Assembly: GCF_004349055.1 (NCBI RefSeq)
Contig: NZ_SMKX01000009.1
Coordinates: forward strand, 1-64,000
DNA from: Kribbella antibiotica
GTDB taxonomy: Bacteria; Actinomycetota; Actinomycetes; Propionibacteriales; Kribbellaceae
Direction: 5' to 3'
DNA: 64,000 bases
Made by a program: the position numbers and the translations under genes. Positions 12,358 through 62,769 of this stretch are shown piece after piece. The stretch's first letter is position 1, and each line of letters begins with the position of its first letter. The notes under the pieces are model-generated. The model saw only the letters and a list, made by a program, of their open reading frames with translations, made no database searches and was not told where the DNA came from.

Positions 12358-12693
12358 TCACAGGGACTGACCACCCCACCGCCGCGCAGGAATCATCTGT
12401 GCCAGCGGGTGAAAAGCCGGAGGCATCGGCAGGGCATCGGTCACGAATACCCACGGGGAATCCGCAAACCACATGTCCAGCGGGCGAGGGTCGTACTCGA
12501 TCGCCATGCCCAAACCAGCAAGGCAGGCAGCCTCAAGAATCTGCCAGCGTGCCCGCAGCCGGTAAACCTCAGTCACCAGCTCGGGGACATCGCACGACGA
12601 CAGAACAGCCGCGCGGAAAAGGTCGTCCATCGTGCCCACGCGCAAAGTCGCCTCAAATCGGGCGCGGACAGCATCAATGTCATGAAGGGTCAT
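12358..12693 (-). CDS. Hypothetical protein upstream of traB
   Basis: A 111-residue protein, not recognised. It is helical and acidic in its first half (MTLHDIDAVRARFEATLR) and Trp/Pro-rich near the end (RPLDMWFADSPWVFVTDALP). It lies 77 bp before traB on the same strand and is probably in the same operon. The start is doubtful: ATG 12693 lacks a good ribosome site, and TTG 12711 extends it by six codons. A well-placed AAGGGAG and ATG at 12753 is in the same frame but is cut by TAA at 12730-12732, so the gene may have lost its original N-terminus or be fed by a short leader. Confidence 0.6.
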   Translation of the reverse strand: MTLHDIDAVRARFEATLRVGTMDDLFRAAVLSSCDVPELVTEVYRLRARWQILEAACLAGLGMAIEYDPRPLDMWFADSPWVFVTDALPMPPAFHPLAQMIPARRWGGQSL

Positions 12694-12729
12694 ACGAGGT
12701 ACAAAAGACAACAGGTCACCACCAAACTC

Positions 12730-12753
12730 TTAAACACGGAAAATTGGATTCAT
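12730..12753 (-). CDS. Possible 7-codon leader peptide or nonsense-interrupted start
   Basis: AAGGGAG is followed after 6 nt by ATG 12753 and seven codons (MNPIFRV) ending in TAA 12730-12732. Downstream, the same frame stays open and becomes the 12358-12693 gene, so this is either a leader peptide or an N-terminal nonsense mutation. Confidence 0.35.
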   Translation of the reverse strand: MNPIFRV

Positions 12754-12852
12754 GCGGTACTCCCTTCTAATCGCTTACTGAAAATGGTTTTCATCAGCCG
12801 GCCTGGGCCTAACAAAAAAATTTAGACCTTTATGGTTTTGGGCCGGAAAGGC

Positions 12853-12898
12853 GCCGGGTCCGGGAACAACAACTCCACCCCGAAAGACCGAACCCGGC
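12853..12898. terminator. GC-rich stem-loop between small minus-strand genes
   Basis: GCCGGGTCCG pairs with CGAACCCGGC (12889-12898) with one mismatch around a 26-nt loop. It lies just downstream of the small membrane-protein gene on the minus strand. The following T-rich tract near 12800-12825 on that strand supports a terminator. Confidence 0.4.
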
Positions 12899-12915
12899 AA
12901 GTGTTTCCGCGCCGA

Positions 12916-13092
12916 TCAGCTAGCCCCCGTGATTCGCGAAATAAAATCCGCGATCTCAGGTGCCGAGCTCGTGCGGGCCAGGTAGAACCCGAATCCCGCA
13001 GCAATCAGGAACTGCAAAAGGCTGGTGCGCTTGAAAAAGAGCATCACGCCCGCAGCGACCCCGAAAGCAACGAACAGAGACACTGACAACAA
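12916..13092 (-). CDS. Small two-helix membrane protein
   Basis: A protein of about 58 residues with a hydrophobic helix (VSLFVAFGVAAGVMLFF), a basic turn KRTS and a second helix (LLQFLIAAGFGFYLA), ending in a polar tail. Start TTG 13092 follows GAGGGGGTG at reasonable distance; GTG 13083 is the alternative. The longer open frame upstream has no support. Small membrane proteins of this size are common next to TraB in Streptomyces plasmids and AICEs (Spd proteins, which affect plasmid spread), so a transfer role is plausible, but this one is not recognisably homologous. Confidence 0.55.
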   Translation of the reverse strand: MLSVSLFVAFGVAAGVMLFFKRTSLLQFLIAAGFGFYLARTSSAPEIADFISRITGAS

Positions 13093-13165
13093 AGAATCAT
13101 CACCCCCTCTCGATCTCCTCGAATGTGAGAGAGAGGGCAACCCCGTTGATTGCCTGTGGTGAGGT

Positions 13166-13303
13166 TCACCGGCAATCTTTTGTGCGAGCGCCGCGCGCAT
13201 AGCGGTAGCGGCTCATGCACTTCTTGCAGCCAGCTTGGAATTTCGCCTTCGGTGCACCACACGCACAGCGAGTCGAAAACCAACTTTGCTGACTTGAACG
13301 CAA
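13166..13303 (-). CDS. 45-residue zinc-finger-like protein
   Basis: TTG 13303 stands 7 nt after AAGGAGG (13311-13317), an almost ideal ribosome site, and opens a 45-residue basic protein. The pattern CAC, eleven residues, then CKKC could bind one zinc; the C-terminus is rich in Arg/Tyr (MSRYRYARGARTKDCR). A longer open frame upstream exists but lacks such a site. It sits in the small-gene row of the element and could be a DNA- or RNA-binding accessory. Function unknown. Confidence 0.6.
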   Translation of the reverse strand: MRSSQQSWFSTRCACGAPKAKFQAGCKKCMSRYRYARGARTKDCR

Positions 13304-13392
13304 GCAATCACCTCCTTCAGTCTTCGCAGCCTCGGGGCGGGTTCCCCTCGATCTCCAGTCCAGCACAAACCGCGCAACTGCGTCAGAAGCCC

Positions 13393-13401
13393 TGTGGATA
13401 A
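13393..13401 (-). promoter_or_regulatory. Perfect DnaA box
   Basis: TGTGGATAA is the complement of TTATCCACA, the consensus DnaA box. It lies in a 550-bp gene-poor stretch (13304-13858) of the element, so it may belong to an origin; a single box can occur by chance. Confidence 0.4.
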
Positions 13402-13745
13402 CTAGATCCTGGCGCCTTCGATGCTGTCGGCAACAACCTCCCATCCGCTGAACAGGTCGACCATCATTGCCCCGAGCAACCACAGATACAAGACCCTTGG
13501 GTCTCGGTTGCAGGAACGTGCAATGGCCATACGCCCGCCTGTCAACCCCTTAGATCACCGTCGAAAGGCTCGCCGGTGAGATCAGCATCTCGCCTGCCGA
13601 CCCTGCCGACCACCCGGATTACGAAAGCCAGGACTCCTGGTTTGCAACCCGGGGTGGTCGTGGATTCACACTCAGTCGCTGCACACGCGTTCGCATCCGC
13701 ACTTGCACGTGCATTCGCACGTTCATTGCCCAGAGCAACAAGAAA

Positions 13746-13815
13746 CCCGTGACCGCTACGGCGCACCTACCCTCAGTCGTTCGGGGGTAGGTACACCGTG
13801 AGTTGCGGTCACGGG
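13746..13815. other. Large nested hairpin in the gene-poor segment
   Basis: Outer arms CCCGTGACCGC (13746-13756) and GCGGTCACGGG (13805-13815) are perfectly complementary. Inside, ACCTACCC (13765-13772) pairs with GGGTAGGT (13785-13792) around a 12-nt loop. It precedes the 13859 gene stop by 43 bp. It could be a terminator for the minus-strand gene, or an oriT or single-strand origin. Between 13304 and 13858 I see no supported gene. Confidence 0.55.
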
Positions 13816-13858
13816 CTACGTTCTTGGGTGAGACTTATTCAGTTGGTGAGTGCGGAAT

Positions 13859-14416
13859 TCAGGCTGTCGGCAACGCGGGCATTTCCTCCGAAGACTCAAA
13901 AGCCGTGACCTGAACCCTTGAAGGTCCGTGGATCGGGTGATGCGCGCTAATCTCCAGCGTCACACCTGATTCCTGGTCGATCACGACCTCGATTCTGTCG
14001 AACTCACCGCCTGCTAACGAAACGCGGACGGCGGGCCGGTTAAGGAAGGCAAGTTGTTCTTCATCTGCCTGGTAAGGCTCCCGTACACCGAGCCATGCCA
14101 GAGCCGCTAAACGGCTCTGTAAGGCGACTGCCTCCGGCGCTGGGTGAGTGAACAACTCCCCGTCATCATCCTCACGGGACACGACCAGCGAGCCGTCCCC
14201 ATTGCGATAAGTGACCGTATCCCCGAGGTCGAGCCACACCATTGCCCCCGACTGATCGCGCACCACAACATCATCATTCCGGAACCAGCATTCGAGATCC
14301 CGGGGCGCGTTCCTAATCGCACCGGTCGCGCGGATGCTGGCGTGCCACACGCTTGCATTTGCAGCGGTCGCAGTGGATGAATCCTCGGACGACATATGCC
14401 AATCGGCAGTGGTCAT
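13859..14416 (-). CDS. Hypothetical protein of the integrative element
   Basis: A 185-residue acidic cytoplasmic protein, not recognised. It begins MTTADWHMSSEDSS and is rich in beta-type segments (CWFRNDDVVVRDQSGAMVWLDLGD). There are no membrane segments or obvious catalytic motifs. AGGTGA lies 5 nt before ATG 14416. It starts 13 bp after the secreted-protein gene on the same strand, so the two probably form an operon. It may be a cargo protein; a role in replication cannot be excluded because no initiator is found elsewhere in the element. Confidence 0.65.
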   Translation of the reverse strand: MTTADWHMSSEDSSTATAANASVWHASIRATGAIRNAPRDLECWFRNDDVVVRDQSGAMVWLDLGDTVTYRNGDGSLVVSREDDDGELFTHPAPEAVALQSRLAALAWLGVREPYQADEEQLAFLNRPAVRVSLAGGEFDRIEVVIDQESGVTLEISAHHPIHGPSRVQVTAFESSEEMPALPTA

Positions 14417-14428
14417 ACGGTCACCTGT

Positions 14429-14935
14429 CTAGTATCCCTGGCACAAAGTTGCCGACTTCGATGAACCGTACGAGTGTACCGCCGCTGCCTCCGGGAACGC
14501 GGTCGATCGCGCATACACTCGGAAGATTCCGAACCCAGCTCCCTTGCAGGATTCGGAACTGAAACGATACGACTTCAACTTTACGGTTTCTGCGGAGCAC
14601 CGATACTTCGTGCGGTCGTAGAACGTCCCGTAGTAGTCCTTCTCTTGCAACTTGATACATGTCTTCTGCGTTCCGAAAGCGCCGAAACACTCGGTGTACG
14701 CATCGAATCCAACGCCGGGTGAATCGTCAGCCATGATCACCTTTCCGGGCGGGTCAGCGTGGCCATGACAACCCCACGGCGCAGCGGACGCCTTCGGTGT
14801 CTGCTGACTTCCCATCGACCAATCCGCCGGAGGCCGCGACGGCTCAACCTCACCCGCCGACGCGGGAACCGCACTCAACCCACCAGTCAAAGCGAATGCA
14901 ACCGCCACACAAGCGAACCGCGTAAACCTAGGCAT
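14429..14935 (-). CDS. Secreted cysteine-containing protein (element cargo)
   Basis: A 168-residue exported protein. The signal peptide MPRFTRFACVAVAFALTGG ends near VPASAGE. The mature part has six cysteines, a pattern suited to disulfides outside the cell, and is rich in Tyr/Lys/Ser. GGGAGGG precedes ATG 14935. No family is recognised. A secreted protein inside a transfer element could act on the cell surface, in entry exclusion or in competition; none of this can be shown from sequence. Confidence 0.7.
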   Translation of the reverse strand: MPRFTRFACVAVAFALTGGLSAVPASAGEVEPSRPPADWSMGSQQTPKASAAPWGCHGHADPPGKVIMADDSPGVGFDAYTECFGAFGTQKTCIKLQEKDYYGTFYDRTKYRCSAETVKLKSYRFSSESCKGAGFGIFRVYARSTAFPEAAAVHSYGSSKSATLCQGY

Positions 14936-14988
14936 GAAAAACCCTCCCGTAGATTTGGATACAAGCTATTCAGTTGTTGGGCCCCGGT

Positions 14989-15018
14989 GTTCCCCGCGTG
15001 CTCGGGCACGCGGAGAAC
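14989..15018. terminator. Strong stem-loop, probable bidirectional terminator
   Basis: GTTCCCCGCGTGC pairs with GCACGCGGAGAAC (one mismatch) around TCGG. It lies in the 14936-15246 gap, in which I see no gene. Confidence 0.6.
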
Positions 15019-15246
15019 AACGGGTTTTCACAATTCCTCGCTCGCTGTGAGGGCTGTACAGGGGTACGCCGCGAGCGGGGAATTGCGAGCTTTGGATACG
15101 GCAGGGCGCGCGTGGTTCTCTTTTCCGTATGGGCGGAATGGTCACGCCACGCACGCCCCGCCGTCGTCAGGTGTGAACGGGCATCCGGGAAGGCTCGCCC
15201 CTTCCCAAATGCTCACCAGGCACCCTGACGGGTCTACTCATATTGA

Positions 15247-15474
15247 CTACGCCTGACTTCTCTTCTTGAAAACGGCCTTTGCCGCGTGAACTTTCGCGGC
15301 ATCGTTCGGTGATGTGGCCTGACAATTGCATCCGTGCAACTCGTGTTCCGTCGTCTTTCTGCACCGATGCGATTGGAACCCGTCATACCAATAGTGATTG
15401 CACGACTTCCCCGACACGATTACTTCATCGGTCGCCGACGTCTCCCGATCACTTTTAGTTTCCGGTGCCTTCAT
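15247..15474 (-). CDS. Small Cys/His protein of the element
   Basis: A 75-residue protein with a likely zinc site: SHRCRKTTEHELHGCNC gives H-x-C, then H-x3-H-x-C-x-C. This resembles small Cys/His proteins common in actinobacterial phages and plasmids, whose roles are unknown. The ends are charged and probably disordered. GGGGA stands 4 nt before ATG 15474. It is one of the row of small minus-strand genes. Confidence 0.6.
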   Translation of the reverse strand: MKAPETKSDRETSATDEVIVSGKSCNHYWYDGFQSHRCRKTTEHELHGCNCQATSPNDAAKVHAAKAVFKKRSQA

Positions 15475-15526
15475 TTCAATCCCCGCTAGTTGAGCTACGA
15501 TTTACAGCGCTTAAAATCGACGTATG

Positions 15527-15826
15527 TCAGGGTGTGATGATCACTTCGATTCGACGGAACGTGAGTTCTTCAACGACCTTTAACGGGCTACCCCAGTCGA
15601 TATCGGCGAGGTGATCAAGACTCGGGACAATGAAATACCTCTGCGCTGTACGGGCCAGTTCAAACAGAGCCGCCTCGAAACTACGTTGGCCCTTCGGTTC
15701 GTCGATAAACATGTAGTGGACTGTTAGTCCGCGAGAGTGCGCAGCGCGGAACATTCTCGACTGAAGCTCGGTAATGTCGGATTCCGACAGATGATCGAAC
15801 CATCGCGCGTAGGCGGCAACCTTCAT
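15527..15826 (-). CDS. Stand-alone degenerate resolvase-like domain
   Basis: A 99-residue protein that follows the serine-recombinase catalytic fold end to end: MKVAAYARW, a LQSRMFRAAHSRGLTV helix-strand, then RYFIVPSLDHLADI and IEVIITP. However, the catalytic serine is gone: the usual YARVS is YARWF. The second arginine motif is also changed (DHLA for DRLG). It stops where the DNA-binding domain would begin. It cannot recombine DNA alone; it may dimerise with or regulate the integrase at 8410, for example as a directionality factor, which the element otherwise lacks. The assignment to the fold is by pattern only. Confidence 0.6.
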   Translation of the reverse strand: MKVAAYARWFDHLSESDITELQSRMFRAAHSRGLTVHYMFIDEPKGQRSFEAALFELARTAQRYFIVPSLDHLADIDWGSPLKVVEELTFRRIEVIITP

Positions 15827-15848
15827 TAGTGATCCCCGTTATGAATAG

Positions 15849-15962
15849 CTATGTCCGGTTGCGCTTGTGATGCACCCAAGCCGCAGTGATCCAAAATCCG
15901 GCGCCGCAGCAGGCAAGAAAGATGCCAGCTTGCACAAGGGTCTCTTTGAAATCGACACTCAT
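15849..15962 (-). CDS. 37-residue single-pass membrane protein
   Basis: ATG 15962 begins MSVDFKETLVQAGIFLACC, a short amphipathic start and one hydrophobic helix ending ITAAWVHHKRNRT, giving a positive-inside tail. The start is 8 nt after the stop of the 15971-16330 gene, which suggests translational coupling. A longer frame is open upstream but overlaps that gene. Function unknown. Confidence 0.45.
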   Translation of the reverse strand: MSVDFKETLVQAGIFLACCGAGFWITAAWVHHKRNRT

Positions 15963-15970
15963 TAGTTGGC

Positions 15971-16330
15971 TCACTCGCCGATACCTTTGCAGCGGTCGGC
16001 GTCGTGCAACGGCCAGCCTTTGCCGTTCCTCGCAGGCTGCGCCGGTTGTGGCAGGGCAGTTCGCGAGATCTCCGGCCCGGCGTCCACCCATTCGATTTCG
16101 TAATCTGCGCCGTATTTGCTCAAGACATCGTGAATACCGGCCCAAATCGAGGTCGACGGCGGATATCCGGGGTGGTGCAGAGCAATAGCGCCGGATGACC
16201 AGACGGCACCCTCCGCTACGACCTGCGGAACTCTTTCCTTCGTAATCAGGTGAAACCGCCGAGCGGCTTTCCACTCCACCCCCGGACTAGCTTTGCCAAC
16301 CTTTCTCAACGTCGCCACGCCCTCTGTCAT
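15971..16330 (-). CDS. Small hypothetical protein of a mobile-element family
   Basis: A 119-residue protein. The core WKAARRFHLITKERVPQVVAEGAVWSSG... followed by ALHHPGYPPSTSIW and a final EIEWVD resembles a family I associate with actinobacterial phages and integrative elements, but no function is known. GGGGG is placed 8 nt before ATG 16330. It is the first minus-strand gene reading away from the divergent regulator at 16485, so it is probably the promoter-proximal gene of the row and controlled by that regulator. Confidence 0.6.
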   Translation of the reverse strand: MTEGVATLRKVGKASPGVEWKAARRFHLITKERVPQVVAEGAVWSSGAIALHHPGYPPSTSIWAGIHDVLSKYGADYEIEWVDAGPEISRTALPQPAQPARNGKGWPLHDADRCKGIGE

Positions 16331-16401
16331 CGCTTCGGCCCCCTGTCGGCTAACCCAAGTGGTATGGGATGGCTACAGTCTGTTACCGCCTAGGGCCGGT
16401 C

Positions 16402-16425
16402 GCTAGTGGCACTGCTAGTGGCAGT
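16402..16425. promoter_or_regulatory. Tandem direct repeat GCTAGTGGCA, likely operator
   Basis: GCTAGTGGCACT (16402-16413) and GCTAGTGGCAGT (16414-16425) are adjacent 12-bp repeats between the divergent 16330 and 16485 genes. They are the likely binding site of the XRE regulator. The embedded CACTGCTAG recurs at 10376 in the integrase-traB gap. Confidence 0.55.
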
Positions 16426-16484
16426 TTGATCCCGCGTAGTGACACCCCGAAGCGGTCGGCCGCTTCGCGAGGCACAATGGAGGT

Positions 16485-17618
16485 ATGAGCCTCGGGGCAC
16501 TGATCAAAGATTTGAGGGTCGCGCGGGGGTGGTCACAAAGCCGCCTCGCCGATGAACTTTGCATGCTGTCGGGCTCAAGCATTTCGCGCGAGTACATTTC
16601 CCGTAATTGGGAGTCGGGGAAATTCGAGCCAAGCGCTTTTTGGCTCCGCCACCTGTCCACCGCCTTGGACACGCCCCTGTCCGTGTTGGAGCACGAGTCA
16701 ATGAAGCGTCGGACCTTCATAGCTGATATTGCGGCTACAGCAATTGCCCCCCGCGTAGCCGCCGACCTGATACAGGAAGGGTTCTCTGCTCGATTACGCG
16801 GGGACGGCCCGAGTATTGAAGATTGGGAAGCTAAGCTAGCCGCATATGGAACTGACTATATGTCGATGGGCGCTCAGGATATCCAACGTCGCCTAGCCAG
16901 TGAGCTAGTTACTTTGCAGCAACAATTAGACCAGCCTCGCATGTGGACGGTAGCGGCGCGTCTTATGACGCTCTTCGCAAAAACCATTCCTGGTTCGGAT
17001 GGCGCAAAGGCTATTAGCTGGTATCGAATGGCCGCCGAGGCTGCCGATAGATCCGGTGATACTGACACCCGTGTTTGGGTCCGGGGAAGGGCATCAATCG
17101 CTCTGGGGTATGAAGGTTCGTCGCTGGGCATCGCCGACATGTTCGGTGATCAAGCCATGGCTATCTCGGACAAACCCAGCCTAGGAAGGCTGAACGCGGT
17201 GTTCGGTAAGGCTCATGCCGCCGCACTCCGTGGCGATCTCGGCACAGCTCGCGCTTTGATAGATGTAGGGCGCCGTTCCTTCGATACAAGCGGCTCATAC
17301 GAGCAAACTTCTGATTACGCCGTCCCATGGTGGAGGGTGAACGTATTTCTGAGTCTGCTAGCTGCACGGCTCGGAGATGAACGAATTGCAATCGCAGCGC
17401 AGGAGGCGGCTGTGCATGAACTGCCCTCTTCGCTACCAAGATTCGCGACTCACCTTGAGCTACATCGTGGCCTGATGATGGCGCGTTCGGGAGATCCAGA
17501 AGGCGGCGAGCGCTATGCGCAAGCTGCGCTAGATCTCCTTCCACCTGAGAAGCACTCGCTGACACTGCGCATGCTCATTGACGAGATCAAGAGAGATGAG
17601 AGTTTACCGAAATGCTGA
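16485..17618 (+). CDS. XRE-type HTH regulator with TPR-like domain
   Basis: A 377-residue regulator. The N-terminal XRE helix-turn-helix covers about residues 4-65 (LGALIKDLRVARGWSQSRLADEL, with ISREYISRNWESGKFEPS as recognition region). The remainder is a long helical array with TPR-like pairs at about 130-365 (AAEAADRSGDTDTRVW, RLNAVFGKAHAAALRGDLGTARAL, ARSGDPEGGERYAQAAL). Such proteins can sense peptides or control transfer in actinobacterial elements. It is transcribed away from the rest of the element, near attR, and probably controls it through the repeats at 16402. It overlaps the next gene by 7 bp. Confidence 0.85.
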   Translation: MSLGALIKDLRVARGWSQSRLADELCMLSGSSISREYISRNWESGKFEPSAFWLRHLSTALDTPLSVLEHESMKRRTFIADIAATAIAPRVAADLIQEGFSARLRGDGPSIEDWEAKLAAYGTDYMSMGAQDIQRRLASELVTLQQQLDQPRMWTVAARLMTLFAKTIPGSDGAKAISWYRMAAEAADRSGDTDTRVWVRGRASIALGYEGSSLGIADMFGDQAMAISDKPSLGRLNAVFGKAHAAALRGDLGTARALIDVGRRSFDTSGSYEQTSDYAVPWWRVNVFLSLLAARLGDERIAIAAQEAAVHELPSSLPRFATHLELHRGLMMARSGDPEGGERYAQAALDLLPPEKHSLTLRMLIDEIKRDESLPKC

Positions 17619-34561: not shown

Positions 34562-35434
34562 ATGGGAGAGCAGTCTCGACTGGGACGGCTTGGCCGGATG
34601 GCGTCGTGGCACGCCGCCCGCGGGCTGTCCGTGTTCCCACTCAGCCCCGCAACGAAGATCCCCGCCCTGGAGAAGGTGAACTGGCAGGACGTCGCGACGA
34701 CCGACCAAGCTCAGATTGAGCAGTGGTGGCGCGCTGCCCCCTACAACATCGGTGTCGCTACAGGTACGTCTGGTCTGCTGGTCGTCGATCTCGACATGCC
34801 GAAGAATGCCGGACAGGTAGTGCCTGATCAGTGGCGAAGCAGCGATGTGCACAGTGGGTACGACGTACTTGTAGCGCTCGCAGCCAAGGCCCACCAGGAG
34901 CTGCCACGGACGTGGAAAGTAACCACGCCGTCGGGAGGTATGCACCTGTACTTCCGACAGCCTGACTGCTTCGAGCTCGGCAACAGCGCCGGCCGACTCG
35001 GCTGGAAGATCGACACCCGAGGAATCGGCGGTTACGTCGTCGGTTCTGGGTCGGTAGTTCGGGGTCAGCGTTACCGGGCTGCCATGATCCGGCGGCCGGT
35101 GCCGCTTCCCGACTGGATTGCCTCGCGGCTCGCGTCGCCGATGAACCAGAGCAGCCGCCGCAGCGTTCAACCTGGACGGTACGGGCATACCTACGGGCTC
35201 AAGGCGCTTTCCAACCACCTCGAAAAGCTGCTCGCCTCGGCGAATGGCCGACGCAACGATGACCTGAACTTTGCCGCCTATGCCCTTGGCAAGGTGGCCG
35301 CCCGTGGGGCGCTTGAACCCGGCACCATCCGGGACGAGCTGCTCGCTGCGTCGCAGCGAATCGGGCTTGGCCGGCGGGAAGCGGAGCGGACGATCGAATC
35401 CGGCCTCGAGGCGGGACTTCAAAGCAGGATTTAA
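34562..35434 (+). CDS. Bifunctional DNA primase/polymerase (Prim-Pol) domain protein
   Basis: A 290-residue protein with the AEP-superfamily Prim-Pol domain at about 12-190: WHAARGLSVFPLSPATKIP, NIGVATGTSGLLVVDLDMP (metal-binding DxD-like pair), VTTPSGGMHLYFR (catalytic His) and GIGGYVVGSGSV. The C-terminal 80 residues are helical (LNFAAYALGKVAARGAL). AGGAGGTGTGACCG precedes ATG 34562. There is no helicase part, as in larger Prim-Pol proteins of actinobacterial plasmids. No helicase or integrase gene is nearby, so it is either the remnant of a replication module or a defence-associated primase. Confidence 0.85.
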   Translation: MGEQSRLGRLGRMASWHAARGLSVFPLSPATKIPALEKVNWQDVATTDQAQIEQWWRAAPYNIGVATGTSGLLVVDLDMPKNAGQVVPDQWRSSDVHSGYDVLVALAAKAHQELPRTWKVTTPSGGMHLYFRQPDCFELGNSAGRLGWKIDTRGIGGYVVGSGSVVRGQRYRAAMIRRPVPLPDWIASRLASPMNQSSRRSVQPGRYGHTYGLKALSNHLEKLLASANGRRNDDLNFAAYALGKVAARGALEPGTIRDELLAASQRIGLGRREAERTIESGLEAGLQSRI

Positions 35435-35823
35435 GTGTTTTTGCGGGCCGCTGCCGGGGAGCTACAGCCACTCGAAGGGCTGGACCGGGCCATATCGCTG
35501 GAGGCCTCCCATGCCTGCTGGTGGCGGCCCGCCAGCCGTTTCACGCGGTTCGGTTGCGGCGGAGGGCAGGCGGTTAGCCGTTACTGACTGCCTGTGCGGC
35601 GTCCATTCGGTGGCGGGTTCAACAGGGGCAGCCACGATTTCCAACCACAGGGCCATCTGTCCGGCCTTCCCGTGGTGACATTCCCGTCTCGTAGCGCGTG
35701 CGTCGGCCGATGATCAGCACTGAGGGCGTCCACATGACGCTCAAACCGAGACACCCAGCTCTCGGTCGTGGCAACATGGCAGCATGTTTCCCCACCACCG
35801 CCGCCGATAGGAGTTGACGCTAC
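35435..35823. other. 390-bp gap before the three-gene operon
   Basis: No gene is supported here. It should hold the promoter of the 35824-38220 operon. AT-richer bases begin near 35690, and AGGAG stands 10 nt before the GTG at 35824. Confidence 0.5.
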
Positions 35824-36543
35824 GTGCCGACGGTGCCTCTGGACAGTGACAGCCTGACCATCGTGGTGAAGGGTCATTTCAAGGCCGCGATCTTCTCTCC
35901 TGCGTGGTTGTGGAAGCAGGAGCTGATCGGGCCAGAGGAATACGAGGCTGCAGTGGTCGAGATCATCTCGCCCGATGTCGCCAAGTTCAGTTGCTTATGG
36001 CTGAATTGCCTTATCACCGGGGATACGTTGCAGTTCGGCACTAACGACAATGACGAATTCGAGCGCGTCAGAGACGCCGTCGTCGGCGTGCTACGCATTC
36101 TCGATCAGACGCCAGTCGGTGCGCTCGGCATCAATAGAGCAGTAGGGTTCCATGTGGAAACGATTTCCGAATGGCATGCTATTGGGGACGCCTTAACACC
36201 GAAAGTGCCGTGGGAAGAAGTCCTTAAACTCCCTGGCATGTCCAATATCGCTATGTGGGGTGTGCGCGAGGATCTCTATAAGGGGCGAGTGGTGATCGCC
36301 GTCGAGCCAGCGGGCGAGCGCGGTGTTTCAATCATCCACAATGATCACTACGACCTGACCATGGTAGAGAGTCAGGCTACAAGCCGAGATGATCCTAACC
36401 TATATAACGCGGCATTGATGGGTACGGCCACGCAAGAGAAATTGCCTGTAGCACTGGAAATCCTACGCGACAGCTTTCAAGCTTCAATATCGCGCTCAAC
36501 GCAGGCTGTTAGTCATATCTTTGCAATTGGGGGGAAGAAATGA
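35824..36543 (+). CDS. First gene of three-gene operon, unknown protein
   Basis: A 239-residue protein, not recognised. It looks like an alpha/beta domain with many strands (LTIVVKGHFKAAIFSPAWLW), a conserved-looking central motif ALGINRAVGFHVETISEWHAIGD, a strand pair GRVVIAVEPAGERGVSIIHNDHYDLT, and a C-terminal helix (ALEILRDSFQASISRSTQ). It has no signal peptide or membrane segment. Start GTG 35824 follows AGGAG. Its stop overlaps the next ATG (ATGA). Codon use is less GC-rich than in the chromosomal flanks, a sign of transfer. A role with the MBL protein is inferred only from the overlap. Confidence 0.7.
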   Translation: MPTVPLDSDSLTIVVKGHFKAAIFSPAWLWKQELIGPEEYEAAVVEIISPDVAKFSCLWLNCLITGDTLQFGTNDNDEFERVRDAVVGVLRILDQTPVGALGINRAVGFHVETISEWHAIGDALTPKVPWEEVLKLPGMSNIAMWGVREDLYKGRVVIAVEPAGERGVSIIHNDHYDLTMVESQATSRDDPNLYNAALMGTATQEKLPVALEILRDSFQASISRSTQAVSHIFAIGGKK

Positions 36544-37115
36544 CCGTTGTCAATGAGAGAACCGGGGTGGCCCACCCGACCATTCTCACGGGGCCAGCAA
36601 CCTCGTCGATTCTCGAACAGCTCGTTGCTGACTTTGGTGATCAGGGAAAGTTTGAGACAGCGACCGCTCCGGCTCACATCGAGCGAATTTCCGACACAGG
36701 GAGCATTGACTCCCAGATCGATGCGCCGAAAGCAGCGCGGAAGATACTGGCCGAGTCTAGGGGGCGCCGGGCATCTGCTGCTTCGGATGTTGTGGTCACT
36801 GGGATGGAGAAGTGGGAAGGGAGGGTAATCAGTGTCGAGGATGGGCTATTCACGGCCGAGCTGACGCCCCTCGACGACACCGGTGGGCCGGTCGTTCATG
36901 CTGATTTCAATATGTCGAAGATTGCTCCCGAGACGGTCGAAGCCGGTGATGTGGTCTACGTGACAGTGAGAACAGTCAGACAGCGGGGTGGGTTGACCAC
37001 TACCACGTCTGCCATACGCCTCAGACGACTTGGTGTGTGGACTTCCGAAGAGCTCGACGGCATCCGCGCGCGTGCCGCTAAAAGGGCAGAGAGCGTTGCC
37101 AAAAGCTTCAGGTGA
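36540..37115 (+). CDS. Second gene of three-gene operon, unknown protein
   Basis: A 191-residue protein, not recognised. The first 90 residues look flexible (DSQIDAPKAARKILAESRGRR); the second half forms a small barrel (WEGRVISVEDGLFTAELTPLDD, VEAGDVVYVTVRTVRQRGG) ending in RRLGVWTSEELDGIRARAAKRAE, a helix that could bind a partner. It overlaps both neighbours, by 4 bp upstream and about 20 bp downstream, so the three products are made together. It may be an adaptor between the other two; function unknown. Confidence 0.7.
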   Translation: MTVVNERTGVAHPTILTGPATSSILEQLVADFGDQGKFETATAPAHIERISDTGSIDSQIDAPKAARKILAESRGRRASAASDVVVTGMEKWEGRVISVEDGLFTAELTPLDDTGGPVVHADFNMSKIAPETVEAGDVVYVTVRTVRQRGGLTTTTSAIRLRRLGVWTSEELDGIRARAAKRAESVAKSFR

Positions 37116-38220
37116 TCCGCTAAAGGCGGGGCTGCCGGATTCCGGTGAGATCGAGGTCTCAATCTTCGGCCCAGGCAAAGGTGAGTCGATCCTGGTCCAC
37201 CTGGGCGCGAATGAGTGGATGGTCGTCGATTCGTGTCTGAATCAATCTGATAAGTCGCATCCGACGCTGGAGTATTTGCAGGGTCTCGGTGTCGACATCG
37301 CAACGCAGGTTGTGCTGGTCGTTGGAACGCATGCGCATGACGATCATATCGCAGGCTTAGCGGCCGTGTTTGCTGCTGCCAAAGGGGCAAAATTTGCCGC
37401 GTCGGCAGCCGCAACAACTGAAGAATTTTTTGCGCAGATGGAAGTAGATCTTACGATCGAGCCACATTTGCGAAGCTCAATTCGAGCTGAATACGCGGAG
37501 ATCCTAGCTGAGGTCGATCGGCGAGTCGACGCTGGATTGTACGCCATGGCGCGCCGCGAACTATGGATTCGCAATAGCGGCTCTAGTGGCCCAAGTGGTC
37601 GAGTCGTCGCCTTATCGCCGTCGGACACGGCCTTCAAGAGGGCGCAAAAACGGTTGGCTGCTGGTACGGCCAATCTTGACGATCGTGTAAAGCTTTCTAA
37701 AGGTGACCCTAATGAGATGGCCGTCGCTCTGTGGGTGGAGGTCGGAAATCAGGTGGCACTGCTGGGGGCAGATCTTTTGAAGGGACCTGCTGGGTGTGGA
37801 TGGGGTGCAGTTCTCAGCGATCTCAAGTCGCCGTTCTGGACGCCGACAGCGAAGGCGTCATTGTTCAAGGTTCCCCATCACGGTGCGCCCAATGCTCATC
37901 ATGACGGTGTGTGGAATGACATCCTGGAGCCGGAGGTCGTGGGTGTGATGGCGCCCTATAGGGCTGGCGTGACACCCCGCCCGGCCCCGGACGATATTCA
38001 GCGAATCCTTGCCCTAACGCCACATGCTTTCATAACCGCAACACCGACAAGACCTGAACCGAAGGCGGTCAGGAAGACCGCAGCGAGCCTGAGGGAGTTA
38101 ACCGCCTCGGTTCGTGAGCCGTGGGGGGTACCCGGCCATGTGCGAGCTAGGAGGCGAGATGGCGCTGCCGACTGGACGGTCGAGACCTTCTGGCCAGCCC
38201 GGCACCTCTCTCAGGTCTAG
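37096..38220 (+). CDS. ComEC-type metallo-beta-lactamase-fold hydrolase
   Basis: A protein of about 374 residues with an MBL fold. GTHAHDDHIAGL at about 73-84 is the HxHxDH metal motif. Later metal positions appear in LLGADLL and in KVPHHGAPNAHHDGVW, which matches the KvpHHG motif of the ComEC/Rec2 nuclease-like MBL subgroup. A helical insertion at about 95-165 is unusual. The start is uncertain: TTG 37096 is proposed, inside the previous gene; GTG 37030 is an alternative. It is probably a nuclease or phosphodiesterase acting with the two upstream proteins. It is close to Abi-C and Prim-Pol genes. Confidence 0.8.
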   Translation: MPKASGDPLKAGLPDSGEIEVSIFGPGKGESILVHLGANEWMVVDSCLNQSDKSHPTLEYLQGLGVDIATQVVLVVGTHAHDDHIAGLAAVFAAAKGAKFAASAAATTEEFFAQMEVDLTIEPHLRSSIRAEYAEILAEVDRRVDAGLYAMARRELWIRNSGSSGPSGRVVALSPSDTAFKRAQKRLAAGTANLDDRVKLSKGDPNEMAVALWVEVGNQVALLGADLLKGPAGCGWGAVLSDLKSPFWTPTAKASLFKVPHHGAPNAHHDGVWNDILEPEVVGVMAPYRAGVTPRPAPDDIQRILALTPHAFITATPTRPEPKAVRKTAASLRELTASVREPWGVPGHVRARRRDGAADWTVETFWPARHLSQV

Positions 38221-41143: not shown

Positions 41144-42106
41144 CTACAGAGGTGTCGACGGACTTTGACCGCCTGCTACGTTCACAGGCTTCTCGCTGAG
41201 CTGCGCGTACCTTGCGGCACTCACGAGGACGGCTTCGGTGCGGCCATCTCGTCCAACTGAAACTGGATCGGTCGCACCCGCATGGAATTGCTTCAGTACT
41301 CGCCTGAGGTTGGTCTGAAACTCGGCCATAGAGATGGGCGCCGGCAATGGCGGCAGTTCCGTGGGCTTCGGTGGGTGACGCCACCGCCACACAGCGAGCG
41401 CCCATCCCAACAGCGCCACCAGGGCAGTACCGATGCCGAGGAGTCCGTTCGCGATCTCCTTCGTCCAGCTCCATCCAGTCTTGACAGTATGCGACGACGT
41501 TGACCCGACGTTGACGTGAATAACTTGCCTGGTGTTGTCGTAGATGACCTGCTCACCGGACTCATTCAGCACCGCAACGACCAGGTTCAACGTGAATTTG
41601 CCGGGCCGCTTTGGGCGAACCTCCCACGACCACTGCCCATCCATTGTTGGGCCCAGGGTCCGCTCCTGGCTCGTCAGCGGCGTTATCTCGCCGGGAAGGC
41701 TGGGTCCGGACAGGGTGATCTTGACCCGAGACCCCACGCGCTGATTGGTGTTCTTGACCGGCGCTTCGCCCCCATCGACTGCGGCCTGGATGATCTGCGG
41801 GCAAAGCCCCATGAGGAGGTGCACATCAACCCAGGTCGGCCGATCAACAATGGTGTCAAGCACCTTTTGAGGCGTCTGCAAACATCCCGCGCTCAGTGCT
41901 GGAACGCTGGGCTTCACGGACGGTGACCCGCCTGGAGTAGTGGGCCGCACGGACGGTGACCCGCCCGGAGTGGCCGTGGGGGTCGGGGTGGTGGTCGGAG
42001 GATCGTCTTGGGTTGCGTTGCGAAGGTTAAGAGCAGCAACTGCGATAGTCGAAAGTCCGCAGACTGCGAGCAGGGCAATCATCCAACGCCGCGGAATCGT
42101 CCCCAT
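41144..42106 (-). CDS. Membrane protein with C-terminal Phd/YefM-like domain
   Basis: A 320-residue protein. One N-terminal helix (RWMIALLAVCGLSTIAVAAL), a Thr/Pro spacer with two copies of PGGSPSV, an external domain with two cysteines (about 70-205), then a second helix (IANGLLGIGTALVALLGWALAVW, about 228-250). The last 55 residues read SMAEFQTNLRRVLKQF...DPVSVGRDGRTEAVLVSAARYAQLSE. This is the layout of Phd/YefM antitoxins: the S-x-x-EF-x-x-NL helix, then pVxVxRdG, then eAVLVSxxxYxxL. GGGGGG precedes ATG 42106. No toxin gene follows. The resemblance is by eye. Confidence 0.65.
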   Translation of the reverse strand: MGTIPRRWMIALLAVCGLSTIAVAALNLRNATQDDPPTTTPTPTATPGGSPSVRPTTPGGSPSVKPSVPALSAGCLQTPQKVLDTIVDRPTWVDVHLLMGLCPQIIQAAVDGGEAPVKNTNQRVGSRVKITLSGPSLPGEITPLTSQERTLGPTMDGQWSWEVRPKRPGKFTLNLVVAVLNESGEQVIYDNTRQVIHVNVGSTSSHTVKTGWSWTKEIANGLLGIGTALVALLGWALAVWRWRHPPKPTELPPLPAPISMAEFQTNLRRVLKQFHAGATDPVSVGRDGRTEAVLVSAARYAQLSEKPVNVAGGQSPSTPL

Positions 42107-42363
42107 AGCAGCCCCCCTGCTGAAGTAGACAGCAATGGTACGGCCGTGTCCGTCTGGCTGGGCACTCTGCGCGCGTCGCAACGGCTCCCTGCTGACGAAA
42201 GGGCCCGGCACGCCGCGGGCCTCTTCGAGGCCACAACACAAGCAGTCGGAAGACCTTCAATTCACTCCAGCTCACTGCGACCCACTGGGTTTGGCCCCAC
42301 GCTTGATGCTTGTTCGCGGTTGCTCGTCAGACGACCATTCGTCTGACCTGCGCTTTCAGGCTG

Positions 42364-42436
42364 TGCCCCCAGCAGGATTCGAACCTGCGACGCACGGTTT
42401 AGGAAACCGACGCTCTATCCCCTGAGCTATGGGGGC
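42364..42436 (-). tRNA. tRNA-Arg (CCT)
   Basis: A complete 73-nt cloverleaf on the minus strand: acceptor GCCCCCA/TGGGGGC, anticodon loop TTCCTAA (CCT), T-arm GCAGG-TTCGAAT-CCTGC, discriminator A. The CCA is not encoded. It closes the right side of the accessory block, a usual integration site, but I found no repeat of its 3' end to the left. Confidence 0.97.
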
Positions 42437-42452
42437 GCATTGCGGAGACAGC

Positions 42453-43271
42453 TTAGCGGAGGCTCACGGGCCGCAGGGCGTGGGCGGTGTTGGCGGCGAC
42501 GGTGATCGGGTCTGTGGGTGGTCGGTCCAGGAGCGAAGCGAGGTCGGGGCTGGCGGTGTTGAGGAAGCCGTGGCGGATGCTGGTGGCGATCGAGGTCAGC
42601 ATTGCGGGCTGGAACGGCAAGAGGCTCGCGTCGGAGAGCAGCCGGGAGCGGTATTCGGTGAGGCCGACTGCTCGGTGGGTCACGCCGAGCCGGGTGGCGA
42701 CATCGTCGGCGCTGATCGGGTCGCCGACCAGATCGTAGGTGGTGTTGGCATGCGCGCTGGGGGCCTGGGCGATGGTGGCTGTCACCGCGGCCAGGTCCGT
42801 TCGCGCCACCGCGGCCAGGCGGCCTGAGCCGAACGGCGATTCCAGGCCGTCGGAGCTCCAGGAGATCAGGGCGCCGAACAGTTCCGCGTACAGGCCGTTT
42901 CGGAGGATGGTCCAGGCGAGGCCGCTGGTCTTGATCAGTTGCTCGGTGGATCGGTGCGCGAGTGCAAACGCGAGATGATCCCCGGCGCCGGTGAGGCTGG
43001 TGTAGATCACGTGACCCACGCCGTCCCGGACCGCGGCTTCGAGCACAGCCTGATGCCGCGCAATCACCAGGTCGTCCTCGGCGTACCCGGCCGAGACGAG
43101 GACCAGGGTGGTGATGCCGGCCAGGTCGAGGGTGGCGGGATCGTCGAAGTCGAGAAGGCGCTGCCCATCTGCCGGGGTGCGAGTGCCTCCGACGGCCCGA
43201 ATTCCCCGCTCAGCCAGCTGTGCCAGCGTGAGTGATGCGAGCTGTCCGCTCGCTCCGGTCACCATGATCAT
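42453..43271 (-). CDS. NmrA-like NAD(P)-binding oxidoreductase
   Basis: A 272-residue atypical SDR. MIMVTGASGQLASLTLAQLAERG at the start is the NAD(P) loop. VGGTRTPADG, LVLVSAGYAEDDLVIARHQAVLEAA, ILRNGLYAELF and the final DLVGDPISADDVATRLG match NmrA/quinone-oxidoreductase proteins of the YtfG type. It is divergent from an HxlR regulator 92 bp away, the usual arrangement for these reductases, and probably responds to quinones or electrophiles. Confidence 0.88.
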   Translation of the reverse strand: MIMVTGASGQLASLTLAQLAERGIRAVGGTRTPADGQRLLDFDDPATLDLAGITTLVLVSAGYAEDDLVIARHQAVLEAAVRDGVGHVIYTSLTGAGDHLAFALAHRSTEQLIKTSGLAWTILRNGLYAELFGALISWSSDGLESPFGSGRLAAVARTDLAAVTATIAQAPSAHANTTYDLVGDPISADDVATRLGVTHRAVGLTEYRSRLLSDASLLPFQPAMLTSIATSIRHGFLNTASPDLASLLDRPPTDPITVAANTAHALRPVSLR

Positions 43272-59241: not shown

Positions 59242-61203
59242 GTATCCGGTTTTAGAGTCCGGGGTCGAACGTGTTAGAGTTTCGCGGTCGCCAAGGGAGA
59301 CTTCGGCGGCCCGATCTGGGGCTTTGGCGCAGTTGGTAGCGCGCTTCGTTCGCAACGAAGAGGTCAGGGGTTCGAATCCCCTAAGCTCCACCAGGCGGTT
59401 CTTATTAGAACAACTGGCGAGATCATCGCCGGGCAGTAGGACCCGGAGACGATGGGTCGACGCGGATTGGCCGTTCCCGGCGACGGGGGCGGCCATTTCG
59501 GCGTCTGGGGCGGTTTCAGGGATCGGGACGACGTCGGGTGGGGCCAGGGTGGTCTGGCCCGTGTGAATGGCGTGTAGGGCCGCGAACGGTTGACGCAGTT
59601 CGTACCCCGCGACCTCATCTTCATCGAGGTAGAGCCGGTGAAAGATGGCCTGGTTGAGTAGCCGCTTTTGGTCGTCGTTGCAGCGACGGTAGAGCGCCTG
59701 CGGATCCTCCAGCAGGGCCAGGCTGAGTTCGATCAGACGCGCATCATCGGTCAGATCCGGGACTTCCTCGCCCAGCCGTTCTTTGAGATGGGTGCGTTGG
59801 CGTTCGAGGCTGCGGAGCTTTTCCTTGATCTTGGCCTGCGGCATGCTGCTGTCGGCGGCCATGTCCAGCAGGTTGTCCTCTTTCGTATCGAGGGCCTTGA
59901 TCTCGGATTGGAGTTGCTGTTTGAGCAGGCGGGCAGTCCGTTGGTGGTTCGACAGAGCGGCGGCCACATGGGATCTGGTCTGCTCTATGAACTGCCGGCT
60001 AAATCGCACTGCCCCGTAGATCCGCTCGACGGCGTTCTCGATCTGGATCACGTTGACGTGGCGGCTGGGGCAGTCGTCGGTCCGCATGTTAGGGCAGAAG
60101 AAGTACTGGTACTGGTTGCCGCGTGAGTTCGTGGTGTGCTGGATGACGAGCCGTTGCTCCACACGGCGACGGTGGCAAGGACCGCAGTAGATCGAGCCCT
60201 TGAGCTGGTGATGATGGGTGCGCCGCCGCTCGCCAGCCATCGAGCGGGAGTCGGCGATGACCTGGACCTGATCGAACAACTCTTCTTCGATCAGGGCTTC
60301 GTGTCGCCCGTCGATCCTTTCGTCCTTGTAGGTAACGAACCCGAGGTAGTAACGGTCGCGTATCATCTTGGAGAGCTTGTTGATCGAGACCTGCTGCGAT
60401 GGGGTCTTTCTGGTTGCTCGGGTGCGGAGGCCACGGTCATAAAGCTCGTCGGACAGATCGGCCAACGTGTAATCGCCAGTCGCGTACAACTCGAAGGCGA
60501 TCTTGATGAGCGGACCACGTACGGGATCAAACGCCACAGTACGGATCTGACGGAACTCAAACTGGTCAATGACGTTCAGGTAGCCGAGAGGTGCGAGGCC
60601 GATCGTGCCACCGTTCTTGGCCTTCTGACCCATCTTGTACGAGATGTCAGCGCCAGACTCCTTCGACTGGTACTCGTTGAAAGTGGCCAGGATGCCGTGC
60701 ATGAGCTGGCCGACGGGAGTGTCGTCGATCGCCTCGGTGGCGGAGATGACGGATACGCCGCGCTTCCGTAGACCAGCCATGACGATGGCGTCGTCGTAGC
60801 GGTTGCGAGCCATGCGGTTGAGCTTGTAGAAGATGATGATGTCCACGTCGTTGCGCTCGCGGACGCGGGCGAGCATCTGCTGGAACACGACTCGCTTGCT
60901 CATCTCCGTTGCCGACTTACCAGGCTCGACATACTCATCGATGATGACGAGATCCTGTTGCTCGGCTCTGCGGTAGCAGGCCTGACGCTGCGCCGGCAAC
61001 GAGATGCCTTCGGGGTCGTAGTCCGTATCGACCTGGTCTTTCGTAGAGACTCGCAAGTAGATGACAGCCCGCCGTCCGACCAAGGACTCATCGGCCTCGA
61101 CCGTCTGACCAGTGCTCACATCGAAGGCCTGAACTTCGAAATCAAGACTCTGAGACTGCAAGAAGTACCGATCGTCAGTCGTCGGCAGGTAGGGGCTGTC
61201 CAT
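58951..61203 (-). CDS. Large serine recombinase reading through the tRNA-Ala junction
   Basis: A large serine recombinase with a 44-residue N-terminal extension. The catalytic domain has VIYLRVSTKDQ (Ser53), IIFYKLNRMARNR and TPVGQLMHGILATFNEYQSK. The recombinase domain includes LAPLGYLNVID and RGLRTRATRKTPSQQVSINKLSKM; the zinc ribbon has IYCGPC and FFCPNMRTDDC, then a coiled coil at about 420-500. The open frame crosses the tRNA-Ala gene on the opposite strand (LRGFEPLTSSLRTKRATNC) and runs antisense into glpR. Only the part to about 59400 (some 600 residues) is likely native. ATG 61203 is the start. Confidence 0.85.
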   Translation of the reverse strand: MDSPYLPTTDDRYFLQSQSLDFEVQAFDVSTGQTVEADESLVGRRAVIYLRVSTKDQVDTDYDPEGISLPAQRQACYRRAEQQDLVIIDEYVEPGKSATEMSKRVVFQQMLARVRERNDVDIIIFYKLNRMARNRYDDAIVMAGLRKRGVSVISATEAIDDTPVGQLMHGILATFNEYQSKESGADISYKMGQKAKNGGTIGLAPLGYLNVIDQFEFRQIRTVAFDPVRGPLIKIAFELYATGDYTLADLSDELYDRGLRTRATRKTPSQQVSINKLSKMIRDRYYLGFVTYKDERIDGRHEALIEEELFDQVQVIADSRSMAGERRRTHHHQLKGSIYCGPCHRRRVEQRLVIQHTTNSRGNQYQYFFCPNMRTDDCPSRHVNVIQIENAVERIYGAVRFSRQFIEQTRSHVAAALSNHQRTARLLKQQLQSEIKALDTKEDNLLDMAADSSMPQAKIKEKLRSLERQRTHLKERLGEEVPDLTDDARLIELSLALLEDPQALYRRCNDDQKRLLNQAIFHRLYLDEDEVAGYELRQPFAALHAIHTGQTTLAPPDVVPIPETAPDAEMAAPVAGNGQSASTHRLRVLLPGDDLASCSNKNRLVELRGFEPLTSSLRTKRATNCAKAPDRAAEVSLGDRETLTRSTPDSKTGYSVADGSFDLGFLDHGGRGFDDQGLLGRVRRTGAGEDLVVGEGDGTDRAVRGLLLHDVHGQGDGDRVPQAFGGRGGLLDDRCGLGGELDLDGELVVG
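59318..59390 (+). tRNA. tRNA-Ala (CGC)
   Basis: A complete 73-nt cloverleaf: acceptor GGGGCTT/AAGCTCC, anticodon loop TTCGCAA (CGC), T-arm AGGGG-TTCGAAT-CCCCT, discriminator A, with CCA encoded (59391-59393). The third mobile element begins right after it. Confidence 0.97.
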
Positions 61204-61236
61204 AGTGGTCTCCGGTGGTAGTCGGCGGGCTGGGGG

Positions 61237-62769
61237 TTAGTTCGTGCGTGGTGGGCCGTTCGACGGTGGGAGCAGGTTGAATGGGAAGGAACGTTCGCAA
61301 AGGATCTGAAGTTGCGCCCCACGGATGCTCTGGAGAGTGAGAAGGGCCTGCGCAACTGCCTCGGACTCGTCAAAGGTATGTGTGGATTGACGGAGACCTT
61401 TGACGGCAAGATGGCCTACCAAAGTGGCATAAGCACGTGTTCGAGCGTGCTGCAAAACAGGGGTCGGGGATGACGCCAAGATGTCCCTGATGAGCCTTTT
61501 AAGCAGGGTGTCCCGGGTTCGAGCCCCGGTGGACCCTCCAGAGGTGAGCAGCGCGAAATTCGTGCTTTCACCCTTGGAATTAGCGACTTTGACGGTAGAT
61601 TCTGACGGCAGCTCGGCCTGCTTCTGGCTGCCAAGCAATACCTCGCCTGCGCGTGTCAGACCACGGCGTTGCCCTTCGAGGTCCTCATGTTGGTAAATCT
61701 GCTGCGTCGTCGTAACGTGCGCATGTCCCAGGATGAGCTGGATATCACGGTCCGGAACACCGAGTTGTTTGAGTAGCGTCGCGGACGTATGCCGACTTGC
61801 CTGATGCAGCGTGACGCGCCGCAGCCCGGATCGATCACTAATCTCGTGGAAGGTACGAGCAAAGTTCTTCGGGTCGATCGGGGTACCAGTTGCACTCAGG
61901 AATACGAGGCTGTCGATTGGTATCTGGCTGGCTGATTCATCGACGGGCTCGTGTCCGAACCGGTTGATATGTAGAGCTTCTACGCTGCGGCGAATAGCCT
62001 CAATGAGCGGTAGTGAACGCTCTCCAGCCTCTGTCTTCACGGGCGAAGCAATGAGGACACTGCCGATACGCTGGATCTGCTGCGTAACTTCAAATCTCGA
62101 TCGTTTGAAGTCAACATCGGTCCAGCGAAGTCCAAGGACCTCACCCCGCCTAAGCCCGTACAGCAGAACCATCACGTAGGCGAGATGCCAAGCATGGGAT
62201 GAGGCCGCTACGAGGAACTGTCGCGCTTCGTCAGCCGACCACGGCTTGACCTTTTTGCGTTGATACGGCTTCAGTTCGACAAGCTTGGCAACGTTCCGAT
62301 GGATCAGTTCTTGACGTTCAGCTTTGCCGAGCGCGATCCGCAAGACACTCCGCATTAGGTGGATTGACCTAATGGTTGTTGTGGTCTCAAACTTCTCGTC
62401 TAGAAAAGACTGAACATCTCGACCGGTCAAATTCTGCAGTCGGATGGCACCAAGTGCTGGCTTAAGATGATTGCGAACAACGGCCTCGTAGAGCTCAAGG
62501 GTTCTTGGCCGGTTCTTTTTGGCAACGACCTCCTGTAGCCAGTGGTCGAGGTACCCGCCAACAGTCCATGACTGATCCGAAACGGGGATGTTCCGCGATT
62601 CGTCTCGGATCTTCTCGTTCAGCTTCTCGCGTGCAATCTTCCGTGTCGCTCCATACACCGATACCTTCTTGCGCTTGCCCGACACGGTGGTGGCGAAGAC
62701 CGAGCCTTCCCATCGGCCGTCCTTTCGATGGTAGATGGTGCCTTCTCCAACGACTCTCCGACTAGACAT
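61237..62769 (-). CDS. Tyrosine recombinase (phage/AICE-type integrase)
   Basis: A site-specific integrase of about 420-510 residues. An N-terminal AP2-like arm-binding domain (GEGTIYHRKDGRWEGSV), a SAM-like core-binding domain (TVGGYLDHWLQEVV, NRPRTLELYEAVVRNHLKPALG), and the catalytic domain with LLYGLRRGEVLGL (Arg), HQASRHTSATLL (HxxR, in place of the commoner HDLRH) and ILGHAHVTTTQQIYQH (His and Tyr). ATG 62769 overlaps the excisionase stop. The native end is unclear: the frame runs through a tRNA-Lys 3' half (antisense LTSGGSTGARTRDTLLK) and another 85 residues. Confidence 0.9.
   Translation of the reverse strand: MSSRRVVGEGTIYHRKDGRWEGSVFATTVSGKRKKVSVYGATRKIAREKLNEKIRDESRNIPVSDQSWTVGGYLDHWLQEVVAKKNRPRTLELYEAVVRNHLKPALGAIRLQNLTGRDVQSFLDEKFETTTTIRSIHLMRSVLRIALGKAERQELIHRNVAKLVELKPYQRKKVKPWSADEARQFLVAASSHAWHLAYVMVLLYGLRRGEVLGLRWTDVDFKRSRFEVTQQIQRIGSVLIASPVKTEAGERSLPLIEAIRRSVEALHINRFGHEPVDESASQIPIDSLVFLSATGTPIDPKNFARTFHEISDRSGLRRVTLHQASRHTSATLLKQLGVPDRDIQLILGHAHVTTTQQIYQHEDLEGQRRGLTRAGEVLLGSQKQAELPSESTVKVANSKGESTNFALLTSGGSTGARTRDTLLKRLIRDILASSPTPVLQHARTRAYATLVGHLAVKGLRQSTHTFDESEAVAQALLTLQSIRGAQLQILCERSFPFNLLPPSNGPPRTN
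61496..61540 (+). other. 3' half of a tRNA-Lys, probable attP core
   Basis: CTTTTAA (anticodon loop, TTT), the 3' anticodon stem GCAGG, the T-arm CCGGG-TTCGAGC-CCCGG, the acceptor strand TGGACCC and CCA are all present in order, while no 5' half (D-arm) precedes them. This is the usual identity block of integrases that attack tRNA anticodon loops. Integration would have put an intact tRNA here, so the site looks unused. Confidence 0.75.

Follow-up and report, generated by a model that had tools for sequence, protein, structure and literature searches.

What are the three overlapping genes that lie side by side in the genome of Kribbella antibiotica, and do they form a defence system? We analysed a stretch of 64,000 nucleotides (contig NZ_SMKX01000009.1, positions 1 to 64,000; hereafter the window), in which an earlier note had read three co-translated plus-strand genes, the last encoding a ComEC-type MBL protein, as a candidate undescribed defence system. 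The genes, termed g1, g2, and g3 (together, the trio), and the Shine-Dalgarno-like sequence read ahead of them are as follows.

35809 to 35813, plus strand: Shine-Dalgarno-like AGGAG ahead of g1, read from the sequence
35824 to 36543, plus strand: g1, GTG start, 239 amino acids, AGGAG upstream
36540 to 37115, plus strand: g2, ATG start, 191 amino acids, GGGGG upstream
37096 to 38220, plus strand: g3, TTG start, 374 amino acids, ComEC-type MBL

The overlapping arrangement was confirmed: g1 and g2 share 4 bp ("ATGA"), g2 and g3 share 20 bp, and ribosome-binding-like sequences precede both g1 and g2. The start of g3 is the chosen TTG at 37096, and the same frame extends upstream without a stop as far as another TTG, at 37030. 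The base composition is also unlike that of the flanks, as had been noticed: the GC content of the trio is 0.574 (57%) versus a window mean of 0.646 (65%; standard deviation of 0.041 in 1-kb windows), and its GC3 is 0.59 to 0.63 versus 0.70 to 0.84 in the six flanking genes measured.

The order g1-g2-MBL recurs in Mycolicibacterium pyrenivorans, in one Kribbella congener (locus L046), on a plasmid of Adhaeribacter swui, and on a conjugative plasmid of Pantoea agglomerans. Besides, a search of IMG/VR with a five-member MBL alignment returned 30 loci, and the g1 profile matched 29 of these 30 records, 12 of which had supplied rows to that profile and so match by construction; among the 18 records outside the profile, 17 matched. 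The sole miss, L036, is explained by its MBL match beginning at contig base 16, with nothing upstream on the record. In all 24 IMG/VR loci that were opened (the other six being L017, L024, L027, L028, L035, and L036), g1, g2, and the MBL gene follow one another on the same strand. The contig of L014 ends within the MBL, which was recognised there from its tblastn match alone, and the MBL frame listed for L034 has a late start because no common start codon precedes it. A g1-seeded search of IMG/VR gave two loci, and the one opened (L037) carries the trio. A five-row g1 profile run against 396 genomes of the phylum matched the window's own genome only, and window g2 was found in 2 of 196 genomes of the order, its own included. 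Since the three-gene synteny recurs in other phyla, the trio is more than a chance grouping; it is a conserved, overlapping, and portable unit. The earlier note had staked its reading on two points, and both held: the trio order is repeated elsewhere (in Mycolicibacterium, the congener, Bacteroidota, the Pantoea plasmid, IMG/VR loci, and Escherichia coli), and g1 and g2 showed no clear homology to a metabolic or housekeeping family.

The last gene has the HxHxDH motif, the downstream aspartate, the KxxHHG motif, and the profile match to ComEC that mark a ComEC-type MBL. The HAHDDH and KVPHHG motifs picked out at first reading are indeed present, and the conserved residues are distributed as follows.

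37330 to 37347, plus strand: metal motif HAHDDH (H79, H81, D83, and H84 of g3); H79, D83, and H84 in 24 of 24 aligned sequences, H81 in 23 of 24
37771 to 37773, plus strand: MBL motif with D226 (LGADL); D in 24 of 24
37867 to 37884, plus strand: MBL motif KVPHHG (K258, H261, H262, and G263); all four residues in 24 of 24

The alignments used here and below (25 rows for g1, 25 for g2, and 24 for the MBL) leave out L003, L004, L005, and L025, and that of the MBL also leaves out L014, which is cut by the contig end. The 24-row MBL profile matched the solved MBL domain of ComEC (9ic4; E value, 9.7e-12) as well as full ComEC chains. The stretch between the motif halves is longer in the trio MBLs than in 9ic4, by about 45 positions (profile positions 91 to 192 versus chain positions 88 to 144), and the H84-D226 spacing is 137 to 148 in all 24 MBLs. 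The Pfam Lactamase_B match of g3 was weak, below its cut-off, and g3 strongly matched phrog_28593 (E value, 1.4e-31), a PHROG without assigned function. Using PADLOC at 0.001, LmuA was matched by all 17 trio MBLs searched and RTasMBL by 16 of them; each of two PDC-M48B models was matched by 6 of the 17, and Avs1a by 3. The PADLOC MBL matches of window g3 itself were weak and confined to the N-terminal 100 residues (best E value, 2e-6). This ComEC type and the intact metal motifs bear out the suggestion that the MBL belongs to a subgroup of nuclease kind, and we propose, from sequence, that g3 is a DNase effector.

The two partners, which were unrecognised at first reading, stayed so. Neither window g1 nor window g2 matched Pfam or NCBIfam; similarly, 17 g1 members matched no Pfam family, 17 g2 members no NCBIfam family, and 25 g1 members no PADLOC model. 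A PHROG without assigned function was matched by g1 in 12 of 17 members. A few g2 members gave weak PADLOC matches (SngA and two REase_II models, each in 1 of 25 members at 0.001 to 0.005), which we took as chance. In short, the effector class is known, and g1 and g2 have no convincing match to families in the libraries searched (Pfam, NCBIfam, and PADLOC).

Structure prediction of the 239- and 191-residue proteins, which had been proposed as a check, gave a confident model of g1 (pLDDT 91) as a well-ordered alpha/beta protein. Its best Foldseek match in the PDB was AdoMetDC/prozyme (E value, 5e-4; TM, 0.31), its VIA matches included McsB/arginine kinase (Z up to 8.9), AdoMetDC (7.3), and TBP (about 7), and its best BFVD match was an unnamed 202-residue protein (E value, 2e-9). 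The g2 model (pLDDT 72) has a low-confidence or disordered arm (residues 1 to 80, mostly below 50), an OB-like barrel (residues 85 to 163), and then a C-terminal helix, with conserved arginines. No Foldseek match was obtained for g2 at 0.001; its leading VIA matches were RhsI2 immunity protein (5.7), PotABC (5.3), and RNA polymerase II chain H (5.1), followed by OB-, cold-shock-, and IF1-like chains with Z of 4 to 5. We regard these fold matches of g1 and g2 as hints only, because the scores are at or slightly above the level obtained for models without clear relatives.

In g1, the residues conserved in at least 80% of 25 sequences are W, D, G, N, P, F, V, L, and K; no His, Cys, Ser, or Glu column reaches that level, and likewise no conserved His column was found in either g1 or g2 (25 sequences each). 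Judging from these columns, g1 is therefore unlikely to be a protease of the Hachiman or Canu type. Neither caspase nor trypsin chains occurred among the structural matches listed for g1 and g2, an absence that by itself argues against neither, and no protease match occurred among the Pfam matches of g1, g2, seven neighbouring window proteins, or 17 g1 members. We propose that g1 is a sensor/regulator or scaffold, and that g2, as its model suggests, may be an adaptor or a binder of nucleic acid or of the nuclease.

The trio rides on prophages and plasmids, and probably on conjugative elements. IMG/VR itself classes its trio-bearing records as viral. By our reading of translations, L007 and L018 have integrases beside the trio, L009 a terminase-like, L012 a repressor-like, and L037 a tail-like frame. 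A PIN-domain protein also lies close to the trio in a provirus (L007, 7329 to 8243). A blastn search with the trio of L023 hit 17 of 5,426 E. coli genomes, 14 at full length and 99.8% identity and 3 at 60 to 80%; two of the latter three cover 20% of the query, and in the one of these two that was opened, L041, the annotation has all three genes. With a second trio as the E. coli query, 15 genomes matched at about 10% cover, and the 12 matches listed all fall within the 17. Four E. coli regions were viewed with wide flanks, and each is a prophage: the trio sits in it between the holin and antiterminator Q genes and runs counter to the phage genes on either side, a location and orientation that mark it as cargo. 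In the congener (L046), a GntR-type regulator precedes the trio and an FtsK-like protein lies about 4 kb upstream (names read from translations), surroundings that would fit an actinomycete conjugative element. None of 50,697 INPHARED phage records was matched with four queries (window g3 at 1e-3, window g1 at 1e-2, the L023 MBL at 1e-10, and the L005 MBL at 1e-4), and among 72,556 plasmid records the same 2 were found with each of three MBL queries and 1 with g1. Thus, the trio is rare or absent in those collections.

Known defence genes lie beside the trio at several of these places. In Adhaeribacter (L004, 7162 to 10094), Shango SngC (E value, 5.6e-211) and SngB (E value, 9.3e-104; truncated by the record start) lie directly downstream on the opposite strand. 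In the congener (L046, 10271 to 11254), a TagI-like SRA-HNH restriction endonuclease (E value, 7.8e-86), whose SRA-type domain resembles that of UHRF1, lies 9 bases downstream, again on the opposite strand, and in Mycolicibacterium (L002, 7613 to 9925) a DUF6602/NucC-like protein and an Mrr-type restriction enzyme adjoin the trio. Around the Pantoea trio, the annotation has integrases but no clear defence gene. Defence genes therefore adjoin the trio in three of the four non-phage loci viewed outside the window, a proportion that is suggestive and not statistical, as it comes with no background rate.

As to whether the trio is new, RefSeq gives the g1 homologue of E. coli, WP_000143147.1, the name "anti-phage protein" in two strains, MEI148-20EC and E8, and "hypothetical protein" in a third, 00-3076, and we found no basis for the former name. 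Because RefSeq already uses it, in two assemblies, the claim that the system is undescribed is doubtful and cannot be taken as established. It is quite possible that the trio has already been reported as an E. coli prophage defence system, of which the window would hold the actinomycete homologue; this would concern priority only and is compatible with the reading that we prefer. A paper cited in PMC13092281 (Brenes & Laub 2025), whose title concerns the defence arsenal of E. coli prophages, may be the source, a link that is our guess from the title. Against this, a search of the open-licence literature by accessions and related terms found no such paper and no description of the trio.

Based on the DNase-type effector with its overlapping partners, the carriage as prophage cargo, and the defence genes found alongside elsewhere, the trio is best read as immunity against phages or rival prophages, and an antiphage defence role is strongly suggested. 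The name that RefSeq gives to the E. coli g1 homologue also counts in its favour. We consider it probable that the trio is a mobile, often prophage-carried module of antiphage defence (or prophage competition), in which g3 is the nuclease and g1 and g2 serve sensing and control. In such a module, g3 would be a ComEC-type MBL nuclease that depends on metal and, once released or aimed, destroys DNA, and g1 and g2, encoded in frames overlapping with g3 as one set, would form the sensing and control part. The flexible arm and OB-like barrel of g2 might tether or gate the nuclease or hand DNA over to it, and g1 might sense infection or serve as a scaffold. By analogy with pro-nucleases, g3 might be silent until infection, with gating or targeting by g1 and g2 in place of a protease, and the cell would be protected through destruction of the invader's DNA or abortive infection. 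We infer the DNase activity, the gating and sensing, and the defence phenotype from the features described above.

More tentatively, the trio may represent a phage-borne class of immunity, widespread but undescribed, in which a ComEC-type MBL pro-nuclease is placed under two dedicated partners instead of a protease, namely, an alpha/beta sensor belonging to a new family and a protein that combines an OB barrel and a disordered arm, and which prophages and other mobile elements use against rivals across Actinomycetota, Bacteroidota, and Pseudomonadota. If so, a conserved set that keeps the nuclease without a recognisable protease would mean a different control of the same killer, and a repeated slot in temperate phages would make the trio a clear tool of prophage-versus-phage warfare. 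As a copy exists in E. coli prophages, the trio is directly open to testing.

Other roles for the trio have to be weighed against this. It could act in a toxin-antitoxin-like manner for stabilisation or prophage maintenance, with g3 as a toxic nuclease, g1 and g2 as antidotes, and antiphage action secondary or absent. Such a system would also have overlapping genes and be carried by plasmids and prophages, but two large partners conserved alongside a large enzyme speak against it, and defence cargo is the better fit to an orientation opposite to phage genes and to a place next to Shango and restriction genes; we consider this role improbable. Similarly unlikely is that the MBL acts on another substrate (RNA, a cyclic nucleotide or signal, or a modified base), for instance in an anti-defence or signalling module of temperate phages. 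MBL folds have many substrates, the weak matches of window g3 include lactonase and glyoxalase models, and carriage by phages fits anti-defence equally; the best profile matches, however, are the ComEC domain, with KxxHHG in common, and defence MBLs. A metabolic or competence operon, in which g3 would have a housekeeping role as a soluble protein related to the DNA-uptake nuclease ComEC, agrees with the ComEC-type domain of g3 but is very improbable given the patchy spread (2 of 38 genus genomes, own included, and 17 of 5,426 E. coli genomes) and the mobile contexts.

MBL nucleases were recently shown to pass between several immune systems as proenzymes that proteases set free. According to Tuck et al. 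2025 (PMC12799240), the Hachiman MBL is a DNA-cutting proenzyme in which two inserts cover the active site and are opened by a trypsin-like partner, evidence of cleavage is given for the AVAST MBL, the Canu MBL is activated by a caspase-like complex, and proenzyme activation is inferred by the authors for the MBLs of Lamassu and DRT. Like the MBL-containing HamMAB Hachiman, Avs1, Lamassu, and DRT systems of that source, the trio encodes a ComEC-type MBL beside partners, and its MBL has an extra stretch between the metal motifs, about 45 positions relative to ComEC. Gating inserts are described for the pro-nucleases in that source. Unlike those systems, it has no recognised trypsin-like protease, STAND, helicase, or reverse transcriptase, and its MBL gene comes last, whereas in HamMAB-type systems it lies upstream of the protease fusion (PMC12799240). 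Canu (CanABC), compared by its description in the same paper, likewise has three genes: its MBL nuclease is encoded downstream of a protease gene, and one partner, CanB, has an unclear role. CanA, however, is a caspase-like protease, whereas g1 has no His or Cys column conserved in 80% of 25 sequences. Among the Pfam matches and the structural matches listed for g1, none was to a caspase.

The 6A-MBL (NF058524), a defence-system MBL-fold protein, matched g3 weakly, with 17.4 bits versus a cut-off of 220 bits, and window g1 and g2 matched no NCBIfam model. For AVAST type 1, g3 scored 13.7 versus 420 bits with Avs1a, and neither g1 nor g2 matched STAND. Some trio MBLs match PDC-M48B or Avs1a, but no PDC-M48 model was matched by 25 g1 or 25 g2 sequences. 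Compared by description only, remAIN of Salmonella Gifsy-1 is also a three-gene prophage system, said in PMC12724215 to block co-resident prophages and incoming phages; remAIN lies in the prophage immunity region, whereas the trio lies between Q and holin. In the LT2 Gifsy-1 record, the immunity region is annotated with small genes only.

The window neighbours, which the earlier note had also counted as signs of defence, proved weak in that respect. Upstream of the trio are genes for an HTH protein and a Prim-Pol protein; downstream, on the other strand, are those for a 140-amino-acid protein and an Abi_C-like protein. The Prim-Pol assignment is solid (Pfam E value, 5e-43) and the regulator matched HTH_31 in two stretches, as claimed, but the Abi_C match of the 335-amino-acid neighbour is sub-threshold (21.6 bits versus a cut-off of 24), and none of the six neighbours scanned matched a PADLOC model. 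Moreover, Prim-Pol homologues (E value of 1e-30 or better) are present in 22 of 38 genus genomes, own included, whereas g1 is present in 2 of 38, own included. The context in the window alone thus indicates acquired cargo and not a defence island, and the case for a candidate defence system is carried by the conserved unit, the ComEC-type MBL, the mobility, and the defence genes at three of four loci.

Several minor observations concern the rest of the window. The stand-alone Prim-Pol (34562 to 35434) also occurs on 31 actinomycete plasmid records at an E value of 1e-20, and a 365-amino-acid protein (41144 to 42241) has a C terminus resembling Phd/YefM antitoxins (sub-threshold). Integration at the tRNA-Arg gene (42363 to 42436) was considered and rejected, since no exact 14-bp repeat of 42301 to 42500 occurs elsewhere in the window; nor does one of the tRNA-Ala region (59311 to 59400). 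Further low-GC stretches lie at 8001 to 17500 and 59751 to 64000, the latter of which starts just past the tRNA-Ala gene (59318 to 59393) and may be an integrated element.
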